Positions 23,240 through 43,393 of a DNA stretch of 52,577 nucleotides are shown one piece after another. Below the pieces are notes generated by a model that saw only the letters and a program-made list of their open reading frames with translations, was not told the origin of the DNA and ran no database searches. The DNA lies in NCBI GenBank assembly GCA_021792975.1, contig JAJYTR010000013.1, forward strand, positions 1-52,577, given 5' to 3'. How positions within the stretch are numbered: the first letter of the stretch is position 1; the number at the start of each line of letters is the position of its first letter. Both the position numbers and the translations under genes were made by a program. Source of the stretch: Pseudomonadota bacterium (lineage in GTDB: Bacteria; Pseudomonadota; Gammaproteobacteria; Xanthomonadales; Rhodanobacteraceae).

Positions 23240-25978
23240 TCACAGCGCCTGCCCCAGCAGGCCGGGGATGGCGGAAGCCGGCAGCGGATGCGCGAACAGG
23301 TAGCCCTGGCCTTCCTGGCAGCCGGCCTCCAGCAGGAACTGGCGCTGTGACTCGGTTTCGATGCCTTCGGCGATGGCACGCAGCCCCAGGCTGGCCGCCA
23401 GGGCCAGGATGGCGCGGGTGATGGCGGCGTCGTTGCCGTCGTCCGGCAGTCCGCTGACGAAGCTCTGGTCGACCTTGATGGTGTGGATGGCCGGCAGTTT
23501 CAGGTAGGCCAGCGACGAGTAGCCGGTACCGAAGTCGTCCACCGCCACCGCGACACCCATCGCATGCAGCGCGTTCAGCGTTCTGCGCGCGCGCTCGCCG
23601 ACGTGCAGGATGGCGCTTTCGGTCAGTTCGATCATCAGCGCGCGCGGCGGGCAGCGGTGCCGGGCCAGGGTGTCGCGCAGGTGGTCGACGAAGCCGGGAT
23701 GGCGCAGATGGCTGGCGGAAATGTTGACCGCCACGCGCAGTTCCGGCAGCCCGGCGTCGAGCCAGGCGCGCACCTGCCCGCAGACGGTATCCAGCACCCA
23801 TTCGCCCACTGCACGCACCATGCCCAGGCTTTCGGCCAGCGGAATGAACTCGGCCGGGGAGACCTCGCCGCGCTCGGGATGCCGCCAGCGCAGCAGGGCT
23901 TCCACCGCCACCAGCCGGCGCGTGCGCAGATCCAGGCTGGGCTGGTAGAGCAGGTGGAATTCGCCGCGGCTGATCGCCTGGCGCAGCTCGCCGGCCAGGC
24001 TGAGGCGGGTGCGTGTGGAAGCCTGCATCACCGGGCTGTACAGCCGGTAGCTGTTGCGCTCCTCGGCCTTTACCGCATACATGGCCGCATCGGCGTTGGC
24101 GATCAGCAGCGCCGGCTCCTCGCCGTCGTCGGGGAAGCCGGCCACGCCGATGCTGGCGGACAGGTACACCTCGTGCTCGAGCACGTGGTAGGCCTCGCCC
24201 AGCAGCAGCAGCAGCTTGCGCACCACCGGCAGCGCATCTTCGCGGCTGCCCAGGCCGTACAGCAGCACGGTGAACTCGTCGCCGCCGATGCGGCCGGCCA
24301 GATCGTGCTCGCCCAACTGGCTGAACAGCCGCTGGCCCACCTGCTGCAGCAACTGGTCGCCGAACGCGTGGCCGTAGCTGTCGTTGACGGTCTTGAAGCC
24401 GTCGAGGTCGATGAACAGCATGGCGGCGCGGCGACCGGCGCGGCGCATATCGCCCAGCGCCACCGCGGCCTTGCGCTCGAACGCGGCGCGGTTGAGCAGA
24501 TCGGTGAGCGGGTCGTGCAACGCCAGGTGCTCGAGCTGGCGCTGGTACGCCTCGGATTCGGAGATGTCCTCGAACACAGCCACGTAGCGGACGGGTCTGC
24601 CGTCCTCGCCGCGGATGGCGCTGAGGCTGAGCCGTTCGGGATAGCTGCGACCGTTTTTGCGCTGGCTGGTGACGCGGCCCTGCCAGTGTCCGACGTAGGC
24701 CAGATCGTCCCAGATCCCTGCACCCAACGGTCCGCCGTCGAGCCGCTGCCGGCCCGCCTCCAGCGGCATGCCCAGCAGTTCGGCGGCGCGGTAGCCGGTC
24801 ATGGCCTCGGCCGCGCTGTTGGCGCTGATGATGCGCCGCGAGGCATCGGCGATCAGCACGCCCTCGGCGATGTTGGCCAGCGCCTCGGCGGCGACCTTGC
24901 GGTCGGCCTCCTCGCGCAGGCGCTCGCTCATGTCGCGCATGATGGCCAGTTGCACCGGTCGCTCGCCCAGGCTGTGCCGGCTGAGGCTGACGGCGACGTG
25001 CACGGTCTGGCCGTCGCGCGTGCGCAGCGCCATGTCCTTGCGCGGAGCCGTGTCGAGTTCGCCGCCGATGTCCAGCCCCTCGGGGAACAGGCTGCCGAAC
25101 GCGCATCCGTACAGCGTCTGACGATCGTCGCCCAGCATGCGCTCGGCGGCGTGGTTGACCTCGAGGATGCGTCCGCTGCCGGCATCGATGACCACGATGG
25201 CATCGCGCGCGCCTTCCAGCAGCGTGCGGTAGCGCGACTCCGAGCCGCGCAGCGCCAGCAGCGTGCGCCGCGCGAAGTACAGCCAGATCGCCAGCATCAG
25301 CAGGGTGGCCAGGACCATCGACCAGAACAACAAGCGGGCCAGCCAGGCTGCACCCAGGGCGATGCTGCGCGAGAAGTCATCAGTCAGCGGTGCGATGCGC
25401 TTGTCGATGACGATGATGCGTTGAGCGATTGCGTTGCGTTTTTGCGCCGCAGGGCCCTTGATATCGGTGGGAGATGTCCACAGTACCTGTGCTTGAAGCG
25501 CGAGCTGGTGCAGTTCCTCCATGTTCGAGTCGGTATCGCGCCAGTTGCGCAGAGCGGCATGGATATAAGGCGTGCTCGCAAAGTGACGTAGCACGAACAG
25601 GCCGACAGGAATGCTTTGCCGCATTGCGCCGGTGCGTGCCAGCATCCGTTCGATCGCCGGATACTCGGGTCGACTACTGGCCAGTGCATTGCGTGCAACG
25701 CGATAATCGTCAACGATCTGCGCTTGCCTGCGGAACCCGGCCAGATCATCCGGATGGCCGGTTTGTACATAGGCGTAAAGATCGATAACTGCCTGCTTTT
25801 CGGCTTTGGACCAGATGCTCTCGCCATTGAGCAGGCCGGCGACAGCCACCTGTACCTGCAGGGCCACCCACGTCAGCACAAGCACGAGCAGAACAATCAG
25901 CAGCATACCGACCAGCAGGGGGCGGAGCTGTTGTGACAACGGGATGGCGGTCGGCTGGTTGGAGCGAAGCGCGTTCAT
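23240..25978 (-). CDS. membrane PAS-GGDEF-EAL cyclic-di-GMP protein
   Basis: A 912-residue inner-membrane signalling protein. TM1 is at about 18-42 and TM2 at about 215-240, enclosing a roughly 170-residue periplasmic sensor region of unknown ligand. Two PAS domains follow (about 250-365 and 370-490). The GGDEF domain has an intact RIGGDEFTVLL (about 566). The EAL domain has LVAVEALLRWRHPERG (about 691), IELTESAI, and VAVDDFGTGYSSLAYLK with the metal-binding Asp pair. No RxxD inhibitory site precedes GGDEF (it reads LGEHDLAGR). The protein may therefore make or degrade c-di-GMP, most likely the latter with regulatory GGDEF. The ATG at 25978 is preferred over one at 26041. The sensor part has lower GC than the catalytic part. 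Confidence 0.93.
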   Translation of the reverse strand: MNALRSNQPTAIPLSQQLRPLLVGMLLIVLLVLVLTWVALQVQVAVAGLLNGESIWSKAEKQAVIDLYAYVQTGHPDDLAGFRRQAQIVDDYRVARNALASSRPEYPAIERMLARTGAMRQSIPVGLFVLRHFASTPYIHAALRNWRDTDSNMEELHQLALQAQVLWTSPTDIKGPAAQKRNAIAQRIIVIDKRIAPLTDDFSRSIALGAAWLARLLFWSMVLATLLMLAIWLYFARRTLLALRGSESRYRTLLEGARDAIVVIDAGSGRILEVNHAAERMLGDDRQTLYGCAFGSLFPEGLDIGGELDTAPRKDMALRTRDGQTVHVAVSLSRHSLGERPVQLAIMRDMSERLREEADRKVAAEALANIAEGVLIADASRRIISANSAAEAMTGYRAAELLGMPLEAGRQRLDGGPLGAGIWDDLAYVGHWQGRVTSQRKNGRSYPERLSLSAIRGEDGRPVRYVAVFEDISESEAYQRQLEHLALHDPLTDLLNRAAFERKAAVALGDMRRAGRRAAMLFIDLDGFKTVNDSYGHAFGDQLLQQVGQRLFSQLGEHDLAGRIGGDEFTVLLYGLGSREDALPVVRKLLLLLGEAYHVLEHEVYLSASIGVAGFPDDGEEPALLIANADAAMYAVKAEERNSYRLYSPVMQASTRTRLSLAGELRQAISRGEFHLLYQPSLDLRTRRLVAVEALLRWRHPERGEVSPAEFIPLAESLGMVRAVGEWVLDTVCGQVRAWLDAGLPELRVAVNISASHLRHPGFVDHLRDTLARHRCPPRALMIELTESAILHVGERARRTLNALHAMGVAVAVDDFGTGYSSLAYLKLPAIHTIKVDQSFVSGLPDDGNDAAITRAILALAASLGLRAIAEGIETESQRQFLLEAGCQEGQGYLFAHPLPASAIPGLLGQAL

Positions 25979-26044: not shown

Positions 26045-26827
26045 TCAAGCGGCCACGTATTCTCGCGTGGAATCCGGCATGTCCTGCAGATTGCGCAGGC
26101 ATTGGTCGATGCCCAGATATTTGTAGATGTAGGTGTTCTGCACACAGGAACGCAAATGGTCGACGAGCGCCGGATCAGGGTGTGTGCCGACCAGAGTGCA
26201 GACGATCTCCAGCGCTTCCCACGGATGGATGTCGTCATACTCGGCGTGCAGCTTGAGCCAGCGCATGGCCTTGGCGCGGACGCGCGCGTCGAAGCCATAG
26301 GCGTAGATGTCATCCCTGGTCACCAGCGCTGCCCACTCGCCGGTAATGCCCTCGACGGCGTAGTTGGTAGCCATCATGCCGGCGGCCAGTGTGTCGCTGG
26401 CACTGACCTGCCAACACCAGTGGCTCAGGATGGCGGCTTCCGGATCGGTTTCGGTACGCAGGGATTCACTACGCGATACACCACTGGCCTCGGCCCAGTC
26501 CAGCCAGTAATCGGCGTGGTTCTGCTCGACGCGAATGTTGCGCACCAGCCAGCGGCGTGCAAGCGTTTCGCCGCGCGTGTAGCCATAACGTGCTTTCAGC
26601 AGGTTCAGAGCCATGTACTTGGGAAACTGCTCGATCAGCGGCCACGCTCCGAGCAGGAAACTGCGCATGGCGACATCCGGCAGGGTGCCTTCGCGCATCA
26701 TCGACCAGATCGGGTGGTCGAGTACGCGCCGTTTGGCCGGCTCGCAGGATTCCACCAGCGCCTGTGCCCATTGCGGGTAGGTGCGCAGGTCGCGCAGATC
26801 GCCGGTGTGGATGTAGGTGTCGCTCAT
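26045..26827 (-). CDS. undA: UndA-like heme-oxygenase-fold diiron oxidase (TenA superfamily)
   Basis: A 260-residue all-helical protein. Its segments RNIRVEQNHADYWLDWAEA, LSHWCWQVSASDTLAAG, TNYAVEGITGEWAALV and WLKLHAEYDDIHPWEALEIV closely resemble Pseudomonas UndA as I remember it. UndA is a non-heme iron enzyme that oxidatively decarboxylates dodecanoic acid to the volatile alkene 1-undecene. The iron ligands recalled for UndA (Glu101, His104, Glu159, His194) fall at exactly these numbers here, and Asp198/199 and His201 could complete a diiron site. Such genes are often labelled TenA-like or iron-containing redox enzyme. The Chlamydia CADD family is a more distant alternative. The ATG at 26827 is clear. 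It lies between typA and the GGDEF-EAL gene, all on the minus strand, in a patch of lower GC. Confidence 0.82.
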   Translation of the reverse strand: MSDTYIHTGDLRDLRTYPQWAQALVESCEPAKRRVLDHPIWSMMREGTLPDVAMRSFLLGAWPLIEQFPKYMALNLLKARYGYTRGETLARRWLVRNIRVEQNHADYWLDWAEASGVSRSESLRTETDPEAAILSHWCWQVSASDTLAAGMMATNYAVEGITGEWAALVTRDDIYAYGFDARVRAKAMRWLKLHAEYDDIHPWEALEIVCTLVGTHPDPALVDHLRSCVQNTYIYKYLGIDQCLRNLQDMPDSTREYVAA

Positions 26828-26961
26828 GGCTCGCTCCTCAGGGGTGTGGACGCGGGCCAGCTATAGCATGTTTGTGAACGGTTGTGTCGGGGCCGGCGCC
26901 GGCCCGCGCGGGCGCCGGGACAGGGCGCCGGACAGGGCCGCTCCGCTCCTGGGGGGAAGGA

Positions 26962-28791
26962 TCAGGCCGCCCGCGAGGCGCGCTTGCGGTCGCTTTCGGT
27001 GAGGTGCTTCTTGCGCAGGCGGATGCCCTTAGGGGTCACCTCGACCAGTTCGTCATCCTCGATGAACTCCAGCGCCTGCTCCAGCGACATCTTGACGGGC
27101 GGGGTCAGCATGACGTTGTCGTCCTTGCCGGCGGCGCGGATGTTGGTGAGCTGCTTCTCACGCAGGGCGTTGACGGTGAGGTCGTTGTCCTTGGCGTGGA
27201 TGCCCACCAGCTGGCCCTCGTAGATCTCCTCGCCGCCGCCGACCAGCAACCGCCCGCGCTCCTGCAGCGCCATCAGCGCGTAGGGCGGGGCGCGCCCGGT
27301 GCCGTTGGAGATCATCACCCCGTTGGGCCGCCTGGCGATGGCGCCCTCGCTGCGCGGCCCGTAGTGGTCGAACACATGGAACAGCAGCCCGGTGCCGGCG
27401 GTGAGCGTGCGGAACTCGGTCTGGAAGCCGATCAGCCCGCGCGCCGGGATCAGGTACTCGATGCGCACGCGGCCCTTGCCGTCGGGCTCCATGTTCCTGA
27501 GCTGCGCGCGGCGCAGGCCCAGGCGCTCCATCACGCCGCCCTGGTAGTTCTCCTCCAGGTCCACCACCAGCTGCTCGTAGGGCTCCATCGGCCGGCCGTC
27601 GACGGTCTTGACGATGACCTCGGGGCGCGAGACCGCCAGCTCGTAGCCCTCGCGGCGCATGGCCTCGATCAGCACCGACAGGTGCAGCTCGCCGCGGCCG
27701 GAGACCTTGAACCTGTCGGCGTCGTCGGTTTCCTCCACGCGCAGCGCCACGTTGTGCAGCGTCTCGCGCAGCAGGCGCTCGCGCAGCTGGCGGCTGGTGA
27801 GGAACTTGCCGCCGCCGTGCTCCTTGTTGCCGGCGAACGGCGAGGTGTTGACCTGGAAGGTCATGCTGATGGTGGGCTCGTCCACCGTCAGCAGGGGCAG
27901 CGCCTCGGGCGCGGCCGGGTCGCACACGGTGTCGGAGATGCCCAGGCCCTCGACGCCGGAGATGGCCACGATGTCGCCGGCCTGCGCCTCGGGCACCTCG
28001 CGCCGTTCCAGCCCCAGGAAGCCCAGCACCTGCAGCACGCGGCCGCTGCGGCGTCTGCCCTCGCGGTCGATCACGGTGACCGGCGTGTTGGTGCGCACGC
28101 GACCGCGCTGGATGCGGCCGATGCCGATCAGTCCCACGTAGCTGGAATAGTCGAGCTGGCTGATCTGCATGCGGAACGGACCGCCGGTGTCCACCGGCGG
28201 CGGCGGTACGTGGCGCATGATGGCCTCGAACAGCGGCGTCATGTCGCCTTCGCGCGCCTCCGGGTCGTTGCTGGCGTAGCCGTGCAGCGCGGAGGCGTAG
28301 ACCACCGGGAAATCGAGCTGCTCGTTGGTCGCGCCCAGGCGGTCGAACAGGTCGAAGGTGGCGTTGAGCACCCAGTCGGGGCGTGCGCCGGGGCGGTCGA
28401 TCTTGTTGATCACCACGATTGGCCGGAAGCCCATGTTGAAGGCTTTCTGCGTCACGAAGCGCGTCTGCGGCATCGGCCCGTCCATGGCGTCGACCAGGAT
28501 CAGCACCGAGTCCACCATCGACAGCACGCGCTCCACCTCGCCGCCGAAGTCGGCGTGGCCGGGGGTGTCGACGATGTTGATGCGGTTGCCGCGCCAGGCG
28601 ATGGCGGTGTTCTTGGCCAGGATGGTGATGCCGCGCTCGCGCTCCTGGTCGTTGCTGTCCATCACGCGGTCGGGCACCACGGCGCGCTCGCTGAGCGTGC
28701 CGGACTGCTTGAGCAGCTGGTCGACCAGGGTGGTCTTGCCGTGGTCGACGTGGGCGACGATGGCGATGTTGCGCAGGTTTTCGATGGACAT
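26962..28791 (-). CDS. typA: ribosome-dependent GTPase TypA/BipA
   Basis: A 609-residue translational GTPase linked to stress and low-temperature ribosome assembly. The G motifs are [15 protein letters not shown] (G1), RGITI (G2), [19 protein letters not shown] (G3), [13 protein letters not shown] (G4) and YASALHG (G5). The BipA-specific C-terminal region includes [16 protein letters not shown] and [19 protein letters not shown]. Length is as expected. The ATG at 28791 gives [19 protein letters not shown], the standard start. The undA-like gene follows after 134 bases that contain GC-rich palindromes but no clear T-tract. Confidence 0.98.
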
Positions 28792-41585: not shown

Positions 41586-41617
41586 AGAGGGCCGGCGCAA
41601 GCCGGCCCTTTCCGTTT
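41586..41617. terminator. Rho-independent terminator after the cold-shock gene
   Basis: GGGCCGGC at 41589-41596, loop GCAA, and GCCGGCCC at 41601-41608 form a perfect stem followed by TTTCCGTTT. On the other strand the stem is flanked by fewer Ts, so it mainly serves the cold-shock gene. It also separates this gene from the convergent diguanylate cyclase gene. Confidence 0.85.
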
Positions 41618-43286
41618 ACGCGCCCGCGGCCTGCACCTGGTCGCGGCCGCCGCGCTTGGCGGCGTACATCGCCTGGTCCGCGCGCTCCAGCAGATGGGTC
41701 AGCGGCTCGCCGGGCTGCGCCTCGGCGGCACCGATGCTGATGGTCAACGGCGGCAGATCGGGGCGCGCACTCATGCGCCGCCGGCGCACGGCTTCCAGCA
41801 GGCGCTCGGCCACCGACAGGGCCTGCGACAGGCTCTGCCCGGGCAGCAGCACCATGAACTCCTCGCCGCCATAGCGGCCCAGGCAGTCGCCCTCGCGCAG
41901 TTCCAGCCGCAGCACGCGCACCAGCGCCAGCAGCGCCTGGTCGCCGGCCTGGTGGCCGGCGGCATCGTTGAGACGCTTGAAATGGTCGAGATCGATGAAC
42001 AGCACGCTGAGCGGTGTATCGGTCTCCGTCTGCAGCCGGCGCAGACGCGCCAGCAGGGCGCCGCGGTTGAGCACGCCGGTCAGCGCATCGTGCTCCGCCA
42101 TGCGCAGCGCCTGGTGGTGATCGCGGCGCGCGCTCAGGGTGCGGTCGGCCAGCCCGGCGATCAGCACCAGCGCCTCGAAGCCGGCGGCGCCCAGGGTGGC
42201 CGGACTCAGCCAGGTCCAGTCCAGCAGCCAGCCGAACGCCTGCAGGCTGCCGCAGACGCTGGCCAGCACCAGCGGCGACCAGCCCACCAGCATCAGCCGC
42301 GCATAGCGACCGCCGCGCAGTGCGGCCAGCACCAGCATCGTCAGCAGCAGCACGCCGGCGACCACCACCACCGGGTTCTGCAGCCAGCCGCCCAGCGCGC
42401 GCAGCGTCGGCCACGGTGCCAGGCTGAACACGATGATGGCGGCGAACAACGCCCGCGCCCCGCGCAGGAGAGCGCGCGACCATGGGATGTAGCCCGGCAG
42501 GTCGGCAAAGCGTTCCGCGAACAGGATGCTGGCGAAGCCCGCCACGCCACCGGCCACGCGCGCCACCTGCGCCGGGTCGGCGGCCACCCAGGCCAGTTCC
42601 AACGGATGGAAGGCGTAGCCGTCGCTGACCGCGCTCAGCAGTGCGTAGGCGCCGACATACATGGCGTAGCTGAGGTAGGCGCGGTCGCGCAGCAGCAGGC
42701 CGAACCACAGCGCCATCAGGCCCATCACCACCAGCACGCTCAGCATCGCCGTGGTGAAGGCCAGCCAGTCCGCGGCCCCGCGCGCCCACGCCTGCGGGGT
42801 GCGCAGGACAAAGTGCATCGAACTGCCCAGCCAGGGATTGGGCGCGAAGTACAGCCACAGCGCCGCGTCGCCGGCCAGCGCCGGCAACCGGAACGCCAGC
42901 TGCCCCGGCGTATGCGCCACGCCCGGGTGCAGCGACTCCAGCGCATCCCGCTGCGGCACGTGACCGGCGCGATACAGCGTCACCTCGCCCAGACCCGGAT
43001 GCTCGATCACCAGCACGCGGTCATCGCTTGGCCAGGTGCCACGTGCCGGCAGCAGGCGTACCCAGACGCCCTGCGGGCCGCGCGGCGGGCGCACCAAGCG
43101 GGCGGTGTCGAACGGATGCAGCGCGGCCGTTTTGACGCGTGGCGGCGCCGGCGAGGCCGGCGCCTGCAGCCAGGCGCCACGCAGCACGGGTGCATCCCGC
43201 GCGAGCGCCATCCCCGGCAGCAGGGCCAGCAGCAGCACCGGCGCGCAGGCGCGGAGCAGGCGTCGGATCAGGGACAATGCGGGCAT
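41616..43286 (-). CDS. 7TMR-DISM type diguanylate cyclase (GGDEF)
   Basis: A 556-residue inner-membrane cyclase making c-di-GMP. An N-terminal signal peptide (LLRACAPVLLLALLPGMALA) and an extracytoplasmic domain (about 30-165) are followed by seven hydrophobic helices (about 170-375), the layout of 7TMR-DISM receptors. The GGDEF domain starts EHDALTGVLNRGALLARL and has the active site RYGGEEFMVLLPG near residue 472. An RxxD inhibitory site is present five residues upstream (LREGDCLGRY), so product feedback is likely. The ATG at 43286 is preferred to an upstream one at 43361 because it gives a proper signal peptide. Confidence 0.92.
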   Translation of the reverse strand: MPALSLIRRLLRACAPVLLLALLPGMALARDAPVLRGAWLQAPASPAPPRVKTAALHPFDTARLVRPPRGPQGVWVRLLPARGTWPSDDRVLVIEHPGLGEVTLYRAGHVPQRDALESLHPGVAHTPGQLAFRLPALAGDAALWLYFAPNPWLGSSMHFVLRTPQAWARGAADWLAFTTAMLSVLVVMGLMALWFGLLLRDRAYLSYAMYVGAYALLSAVSDGYAFHPLELAWVAADPAQVARVAGGVAGFASILFAERFADLPGYIPWSRALLRGARALFAAIIVFSLAPWPTLRALGGWLQNPVVVVAGVLLLTMLVLAALRGGRYARLMLVGWSPLVLASVCGSLQAFGWLLDWTWLSPATLGAAGFEALVLIAGLADRTLSARRDHHQALRMAEHDALTGVLNRGALLARLRRLQTETDTPLSVLFIDLDHFKRLNDAAGHQAGDQALLALVRVLRLELREGDCLGRYGGEEFMVLLPGQSLSQALSVAERLLEAVRRRRMSARPDLPPLTISIGAAEAQPGEPLTHLLERADQAMYAAKRGGRDQVQAAGA

Positions 43287-43393
43287 CGCGGCAGGCCGCC
43301 GGGCCACGGGAGGCCTCGTTCGATGACATTCAAGCAAACCCCGTGCCGCCGTGTCAGCCACGGTGGCGCCCGCCGCACGGCGGTCGGTGAAGC

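Follow-up and report, generated by a model that had tools for sequence, protein, structure and literature searches.

In the window, by which we mean the whole stretch of 52,577 nucleotides that was analyzed, a gene for a predicted fatty-acid decarboxylase of the UndA type is followed on the same strand by a gene for a c-di-GMP protein with an N-terminal sensor domain of the RbdA type. The second gene, to which the initial annotation made no reference, tells more about the locus than undA does. The new finding is a portable unit of undA and an RbdA-type sensor gene outside Pseudomonas, in which the gene order is reversed and the output core is different. The association of undA with rbdA was already known within Pseudomonas, because Rui et al. 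2014, as cited in the available text of PMC10614000, reported that undA is always associated with rbdA in Pseudomonas genomes. The extension to the Rhodanobacteraceae, the reversed order, and the exchange of the catalytic core were not found in the literature searched, which leaves out most subscription journals.

Family assignment and occurrence of the undA-like gene

The undA-like gene (26045..26827, minus strand) putatively encodes a heme-oxygenase-like diiron fatty-acid decarboxylase of 260 aa. The initial annotation had given the reading frame and its length correctly without naming a strand; the start codon is ATG, and a Shine-Dalgarno-like GAGGAG (26834..26839, minus strand), found by eye, is located 6 nt before it. 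The upstream flank of the pair in the window's genus is a gene (26962..28791, minus strand) that we take to be typA/bipA, for a GTPase, from sequence recall and not from a family scan. The downstream flank is a diphthamide-synthase-like gene (PF01902; 22447..23379, minus strand), the listed GTG start of which overlaps the rbdA-like gene, so that translation probably begins at a more internal position. Nothing useful came from a scan for promoters and terminators. The undA gene is under purifying selection, with dN 0.13 and dS 1.5 relative to an 80%-identical congener and dN/dS values of 0.09-0.17 over three congeners.

Judging by sequence and by a modeled structure, we are fairly confident that 26045-26827 encodes a UndA-type enzyme. 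The protein is 47-48% identical to Pseudomonas UndA over its whole length, with a TM-score of 0.93. When solved structures were searched by sequence (phmmer), the best matches were PSPTO1738 of P. syringae (3oql, 9.5e-88) and UndA (4wwj, 2.2e-84; 6p5q, 3.8e-84), followed at a distance by a TenA-family protein (9wdg, 8.3e-4) and CADD (1.4e-3 and 1.8e-3). An AlphaFold2 model built from 32 sequences (pLDDT 90.6, pTM 0.87) gave TM-scores by query length of 0.89-0.93 to 3oql and UndA and 0.70-0.73 to CADD, whereas the TenA and PqqC structures among the best 50 fold matches reached about 0.59-0.71 at 11-16% identity. PSPTO1738, a solved structure labelled 'TenA homolog', was the best match by both sequence and fold, at 50-51% identity and with TM-scores to the model of 0.90 by query length and 0.96-0.97 by target length. 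In Pfam, Haem_oxygenas_2 (42.3 bits) and TENA_THI-4 (31.3 bits) both exceeded their cut-offs, and the NCBIfam matches were to CADD, at 37.8 bits against a cut-off of 200, and to one further model at chance level.

Membership in the neighboring families was rejected. For CADD (TIGR04305), the score is far under the cut-off, and W41 occupies the position of the sacrificed Tyr27, a column that by itself cannot separate CADD from UndA because Pf-5 UndA also has Y there. CADD and NePabS, which are self-sacrificing pABA synthases, have the fold and ligand motif of heme-oxygenase-like diiron oxygenases (HDOs) in common with the window protein, but the CADD structures are only 19-20% identical to it. 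For PqqC (TIGR02111) and the TenA thiaminases (TIGR04306), there were no matches at E <= 0.001 in the host genome G000. Therefore, by sequence, profiles, fold, and tree, the protein groups with UndA and not with CADD, PqqC, or TenA, as had been proposed.

The proposed iron ligands Glu101, His104, Glu159, and His194 were indeed found at the UndA numbers in an alignment with Pf-5 UndA, and the window protein also has two further HDO ligands, D198 and H201, that had not been listed. All six residues, together with W190, are present at the same numbers in 32 of 32 UndA-type rows, Pf-5 UndA included; thus, no row lacks a ligand, the loss of which had been named as a reason to doubt the assignment. 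We take positions 101, 104, 159, 194, 198, and 201 to be the published UndA ligands. The heme-oxygenase-like outgroup row L093 also has all six, with Y at 190, and therefore the set is a mark of the superfamily rather than of UndA specifically. In the portions available, PMC11363339 gives the UndA motif as E-H-X-H-D-H and PMC13108848 gives a 3H/3C set, the latter also reporting that a W190F variant abolishes the UndA tyrosyl radical.

A separate alignment, A1 (32 rows), which holds no Pseudomonas sequence, has 51 invariant columns that include the six ligands and W190. P69 and Q102, the latter beside ligand E101, are likewise invariant in A1, whereas Pf-5 UndA has A and L at these positions and Y in place of W41. 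The characterized Pseudomonas enzymes (Pf-5, 4wwj/6p5q; PA14_53120; MFE01) are otherwise like the window protein in length, fold, ligand numbers, W190, and motif segments. Two segments cited earlier as matching UndA proved close to Pf-5 UndA but not identical (RNIRVEQNHADYW versus RNIRVELNHADYW and HAEYDDIHPWEALEI versus HAQYDDAHPWEALEI). The expectation that such genes are hidden under TenA-like labels was borne out for 2 of 12 matching plasmid-collection records, annotated 'TenA family transcriptional regulator', but not for the other 10, of which 3 were named 'iron-containing redox enzyme family protein', 1 was hypothetical, and 6 had no listed feature.

In a phylogenetic tree from which the two longest outgroup rows were left out, the 32 UndA rows were split from CADD and PqqC (92/90, branch 3.7). 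In the same tree, the window and four congeners (99/98) fell inside a 12-row clade (96/94), in which L080 is the only row from outside the Rhodanobacteraceae and which lies beside and outside the Pseudomonas clade holding Pf-5 UndA (99/94). With all outgroups, the placement of the window was the same (95/94) and the six outgroup rows grouped at only 60/82; the position of UndA relative to the outgroups is shaky because the outgroup branches are very long. Three divergent UndA-like proteins (L081, L101, and L203), 33-38% identical to the window protein, formed a clade of their own (100/100).

The host genome (2.28 Mb, 76% complete) has one undA copy. It was found that 44 of 99 genomes, G000 included, carry undA, in 46 copies: 44 of the 59 genomes (G000-G058) of family f1, which is taken to be the Rhodanobacteraceae, and none of the 40 from the order's other families. 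Within the window's genus, 10 of 13 genomes carry the gene. Named relatives include Dyella, Frateuria, and Luteibacter, in agreement with the description of the genome as xanthomonad-like. Across the phylum sample undA was present in 11 of 398 genomes, and in the class sample in 4 of 369 (G000 is in both); the family and phylum genome searches scored part of the first-look candidates (at most 29 per genome for the family sensor search and at most 7 and 6 for the phylum), so that absences in them are not proof. The gene was also found in records of Caballeronia, Paraburkholderia, Vogesella, Janthinobacterium, and P. aeruginosa. Provided that the encoded enzymes are active, this distribution argues against UndA being exclusive to Pseudomonas, and a gene for a volatile-alkene synthase would be common in a bacterial family other than that of Pseudomonas. 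We know of no enzyme of this UndA clade from outside Pseudomonas that has been assayed.

Predicted reaction and products

In the proposed mechanism, a medium-chain free fatty acid would be bound through its carboxylate by the diferrous cluster held by E101, H104, E159, H194, D198, and H201, which would also activate O2. The acid would then lose C1 as CO2 and a hydrogen from C3, so that a volatile 1-alkene would be formed; in Pseudomonas, lauric acid yields 1-undecene. The activity, chain length, and product that we assign to the window UndA are inferred from its likeness to the Pseudomonas enzymes. For UndA, the available text of PMC13108848 describes the conversion of a medium-chain acid and O2 to a 1-alkene and CO2 at a diiron cluster, and undA mutants of PA14 and MFE01 are reported to lose 1-undecene (PMC8246062, PMC10614000, as far as these were available). 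The accessible part of PMC10614000 also reports that the mature biofilm of P. fluorescens MFE01 becomes flatter when undA is deleted.

The window protein might instead be a heme-oxygenase-like diiron oxygenase whose substrate preference has drifted to a hydroxy-acid, unsaturated, or amino-acid substrate and which forms no 1-alkene. The superfamily is functionally diverse according to the available portion of PMC13108848, the window protein and the assayed enzyme are only 47-48% identical, and Q102 and P69 are unlike Pf-5. However, the similarity extends over the whole length, the 51 invariant columns of A1 include W190 and the six ligands, these residues are also kept in the Pseudomonas rows, and the partner sensor is of the same type as in Pseudomonas; such drift is quite improbable. 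A main role in oxidative stress or O2 scavenging has a precedent in the HDO DtpC of Acinetobacter (PMC13232832, seen in part), but close Pseudomonas homologues make 1-undecene and undA mutants lose it, as noted above from PMC8246062 and PMC10614000, and we regard this role, in place of volatile formation, as very improbable indeed.

A sharper version of the UndA explanation, and not its opposite, concerns the products. Rhodanobacteraceae make mostly iso fatty acids, which distinguishes the window's host family from Pseudomonas, and therefore the main products there may be iso-branched 1-alkenes, namely 10-methyl-1-undecene from 11-methyldodecanoic acid and a shorter alkene from iso-C11. We offer this tentatively, as a reading that has some standing without being the expected one. 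By our own chemistry, removal of C1 from iso-C13:0 and introduction of a terminal double bond give exactly the skeleton of 10-methyl-1-undecene. The compound is described in the available text of PMC9330711 as 'specifically emitted by D. yeojuensis', a species now named Luteibacter yeojuensis (PMC9965599, in part). The fatty acids of Luteibacter are mainly iso, with iso-C11:0 at 3.8% and iso-C13:0 3-OH at 2.4% in L. yeojuensis (same source and portion), those of F. aurantia are described as iso-branched in the partial source at hand, and all 3 genomes sampled from genus g11, which is taken to include L. flocculans, carry undA.

Several points stand against this reading. In the available part of the source, the name of the D. 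yeojuensis volatile depends solely on a match to NIST spectra. To our knowledge, iso acids are not expected in Pseudomonas; yet 10-methyl-1-undecene has also been reported for a Pseudomonas strain (PMC8840531, seen in part), and of 6 papers in which its name appears, at least three concern Pseudomonas, judged by title. The available portion of PMC9965599 gives iso-C13:0 itself as undetected in L. yeojuensis. In addition, the fatty-acid support comes from Luteibacter and F. aurantia and not from the window's own genus, and the undA support comes from genus g11 and not from L. yeojuensis itself. If the products are branched in this way, an unexplained Dyella/Luteibacter volatile would obtain its enzyme.

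The paired rbdA-like gene, its sensor, and its catalytic core

The rbdA-like gene (23240..25978, minus strand) lies 66 bp downstream of undA on the same strand, and a simple scan showed no terminator-like site. With the ATG taken at 25978, it encodes 912 aa with an N-terminal membrane sensor (25259..25978, minus strand), two PAS domains, a GGDEF domain (24053..24523, minus strand), and an EAL domain (23285..23989, minus strand), the GGDEF and EAL motifs both being intact. The same order, undA and then a PAS-GGDEF-EAL gene on the same strand, was found in 46 of 46 Rhodanobacteraceae copies, where the contig copies L032-L034, L037, and L039, paired by identity and position, were used for G003-G006. 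The neighboring gene runs off the contig end in L032, L105, and L119, and that of L119 is spread over two frames. Locus L080, from another family, has the Rhodanobacteraceae gene order.

Elsewhere the order is the opposite. In the P. aeruginosa plasmid record NZ_CP131792.1 (L100), an 818-aa EAL protein, which from gene order and domain make-up we take to be RbdA/PA0861, is encoded directly upstream of undA. A c-di-GMP gene also precedes undA, by coordinates, in 8 undA-bearing genomes of family f171, taken to be the Pseudomonadaceae, in the phylum sample, and in 25 of 31 other loci (mostly Burkholderiaceae, also Vogesella), although in pieces in L078 and L079. Of the remaining six loci, L048 shows an EAL end at which the contig stops, and no c-di-GMP gene was seen in L061, L071, L072, L074, and L076, with 540 bp of upstream sequence in L071 and 1.6 kb in L061. 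Two Janthinobacterium loci and one betaproteobacterial MAG carry undA without a GGDEF/EAL gene within 5 kb on either side. The Pseudomonas order (rbdA and then undA) was rejected for the window, as it is reversed in all 46 Rhodanobacteraceae copies.

The 847-kb 'plasmid' record of L100 is possibly a mis-assigned or recombined replicon; on it, undA is accompanied by the EAL gene and by hppD, three genes that are presumably chromosomal neighbors in PAO1.

The window neighbor is like RbdA in having a homologous N-terminal membrane sensor, PAS, GGDEF, and EAL domains, and adjacency to undA; it differs in its second PAS domain, in the gene order, and in a catalytic core from another clade. The homology of the sensors was evaluated by single-sequence BLAST, in which the first 235-240 residues of the window neighbor and of the P. 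aeruginosa protein found each other with E values of 1.5e-9 and 2.2e-8. Among 111 GGDEF/EAL open reading frames, matches at E <= 1 were restricted to undA-linked proteins and L143, the weakest (E 0.59) coming from a piece of L078, which is itself undA-linked. This search gave no sensor match for any of the unlinked controls in the series L144-L172, in which L153, L155, L158, and L165 are undA-linked proteins present a second time. Because 15 of the 16 sequences behind the sensor profile, A2, are undA-linked, its matches to them are by construction, and the independent test is the single-sequence BLAST. Profile A2 matched beside undA in 46 of 46 Rhodanobacteraceae copies.

The sensor, which has a conserved ESxWSKxxK motif, belongs to no Pfam family: a Pfam search gave scattered single-member matches only (best 0.0034), and a search of PDB sequences gave nothing below 0.13. 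A structural model (pLDDT 91.4) shows two long terminal helices around a helical bundle. Foldseek returned nothing for this model at E <= 0.001 (the best E was 0.23); NarQ (5jeq) and the Adeh_2942 sensor (4k0d) had probabilities of 0.87-0.91 with E values of 0.79-1.4.

The catalytic cores gave a different result. The window neighbor scored best with the NCBIfam model DibA and the L100 protein with PRK09776, both under the cut-offs. When cores were compared with that of the window by BLAST, the 8 RbdA-type cores scored 149-188 bits. Of 25 GGDEF-EAL controls of the same family that are not linked to undA, 22 scored 261-352 bits and the other 3 scored below the RbdA-type cores, at 109-132 bits. 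In the core tree, 12 Rhodanobacteraceae-type cores formed one group (100/100) and 8 RbdA-type cores another (94/93), and a single clade for all 21 sensor-bearing cores was rejected (p-AU 3.69e-05). In a whole-genome search with the full-length L100 protein, the undA neighbor scored 216.7 bits against a best of 240.3 in G000; it is not the best match because the catalytic domains dominate the score, and only the sensor separates these proteins. Full-length orthology of the neighbor to RbdA was therefore rejected for the catalytic core and kept for the sensor. Because both the cores and the gene order differ, the sensor and undA stayed together while the order and the output module changed.

The sensor also occurs apart from undA. 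Among scored candidates in family f1, it was found in every one of the 44 undA-bearing genomes and in 4 of the 15 that lack undA. In the phylum sample, 10 of 11 undA genomes carry the sensor beside undA, and 35 of the 45 genomes with a sensor have no undA match among scored candidates, and therefore the sensor represents a wider family and its cue need not be the substrate or product of UndA. RbdA itself takes part in P. aeruginosa biofilm dispersal and is needed for dispersal induced by cis-2-decenoic acid, a signal the sensor of which is reported to be DspS (PMC10746223, available portion). Mn2+ raises RbdA activity, and the N-terminal cue is described as unsettled in the part of PMC10294637 at hand.

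Strong sensor matches in Rhodanobacteraceae genomes without undA were seen in G028 (L143, family f1) and G048, where the sensor-bearing open frames are short (547 and 586 aa); the G028 sensor, at 42% identity to the L100 sensor, is nearer to the Pseudomonas type, and its longer match is interrupted by a stop. Further RbdA-type sensors unlinked to undA were seen in the Lysobacterales genomes G031, G035, G040, G055, G068, G072, G085, and G087. The window contains a second c-di-GMP gene (41616-43361, minus strand), of the 7TMR-DISM and GGDEF type, in which the RbdA-type sensor profile had no match.

Apparent joint gain and loss of the pair and its possible meaning

The undA gene and the sensor gene seem to be gained and lost as a pair. 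Neither undA nor the sensor is present in the congener G010 (99% complete), where typA is followed directly by the diphthamide-synthase-like gene. G001 and G002 are the other two congeners that lack the pair; the empty site is readable only in G010, as typA is split over contigs in G001 and G002 has no full typA match. The gene typA is upstream of the pair in 11 of 11 copies from the window's genus and in none of the 35 other Rhodanobacteraceae copies. UndA and sensor distances were correlated, with r 0.94 over 71 pairs and 0.88 within the Rhodanobacteraceae, which fits joint inheritance and is no proof of function.

If undA and the membrane-anchored PAS-GGDEF-EAL gene with its RbdA-type sensor form a two-gene unit, presumably co-transcribed, then alkene formation, or the supply of its medium-chain fatty acids, is probably tied to c-di-GMP control of biofilm or dispersal, a signaling link that we infer from the arrangement of the genes. 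Alternatively, the two genes could be lucky neighbors, inherited together without functional meaning. Simple vertical co-inheritance would give just such a distance correlation (r 0.94), and the sensor is often found without undA. However, the pair persists through changes in gene order and catalytic core, its surroundings differ (as seen from typA), it is absent as a unit from G010, and the three divergent undA-like homologues that were examined have c-di-GMP neighbors of other architectures. We therefore consider an accidental pairing unlikely and favor a functional tie.

These three homologues were simply the ones examined and were not picked as a test. In L101 (A. baumannii), a diguanylate cyclase gene adjoins on the opposite strand; in G306 (L211), an 857-aa GGDEF-EAL open reading frame lies upstream; and in G638 (L212), a GAF-PAS-GGDEF-EAL-type open reading frame lies downstream, all three without the RbdA sensor. 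The partial homologue L082 has no c-di-GMP gene in its 1.5 kb upstream.

A more specific proposal, which we hold as doubtful, is that the RbdA-type sensor is a receptor for the substrate or product of UndA, and undA plus sensor a portable volatile-signaling unit. The cell would make a volatile 1-alkene, branched in the Rhodanobacteraceae, and the paired membrane protein would read either the alkene or the fatty acid that is consumed and would set c-di-GMP. The unit has been kept in Pseudomonas, Burkholderiaceae, Vogesella, and Rhodanobacteraceae despite the swapped order and core, and the retention of the sensor beside a predicted fatty-acid decarboxylase through these changes provides a concrete ligand hypothesis for cultured soil and pond bacteria.

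In L078 (Candidatus Burkholderia humilis), the rbdA neighbor and undA are in pieces, and in L079 (an uncultured Caballeronia symbiont), the rbdA neighbor is in pieces and the undA match stops at residue 207, so that the pair seems to decay jointly in symbionts. Two genomes, G004 (L032 and L037) and G025 (L108 and L111), have two undA-rbdA units each. The two units of G004 are each accompanied by a separate typA, and their UndA proteins are 74% and 64% identical to that of the window; a mixed bin, rather than a duplication, is possible.
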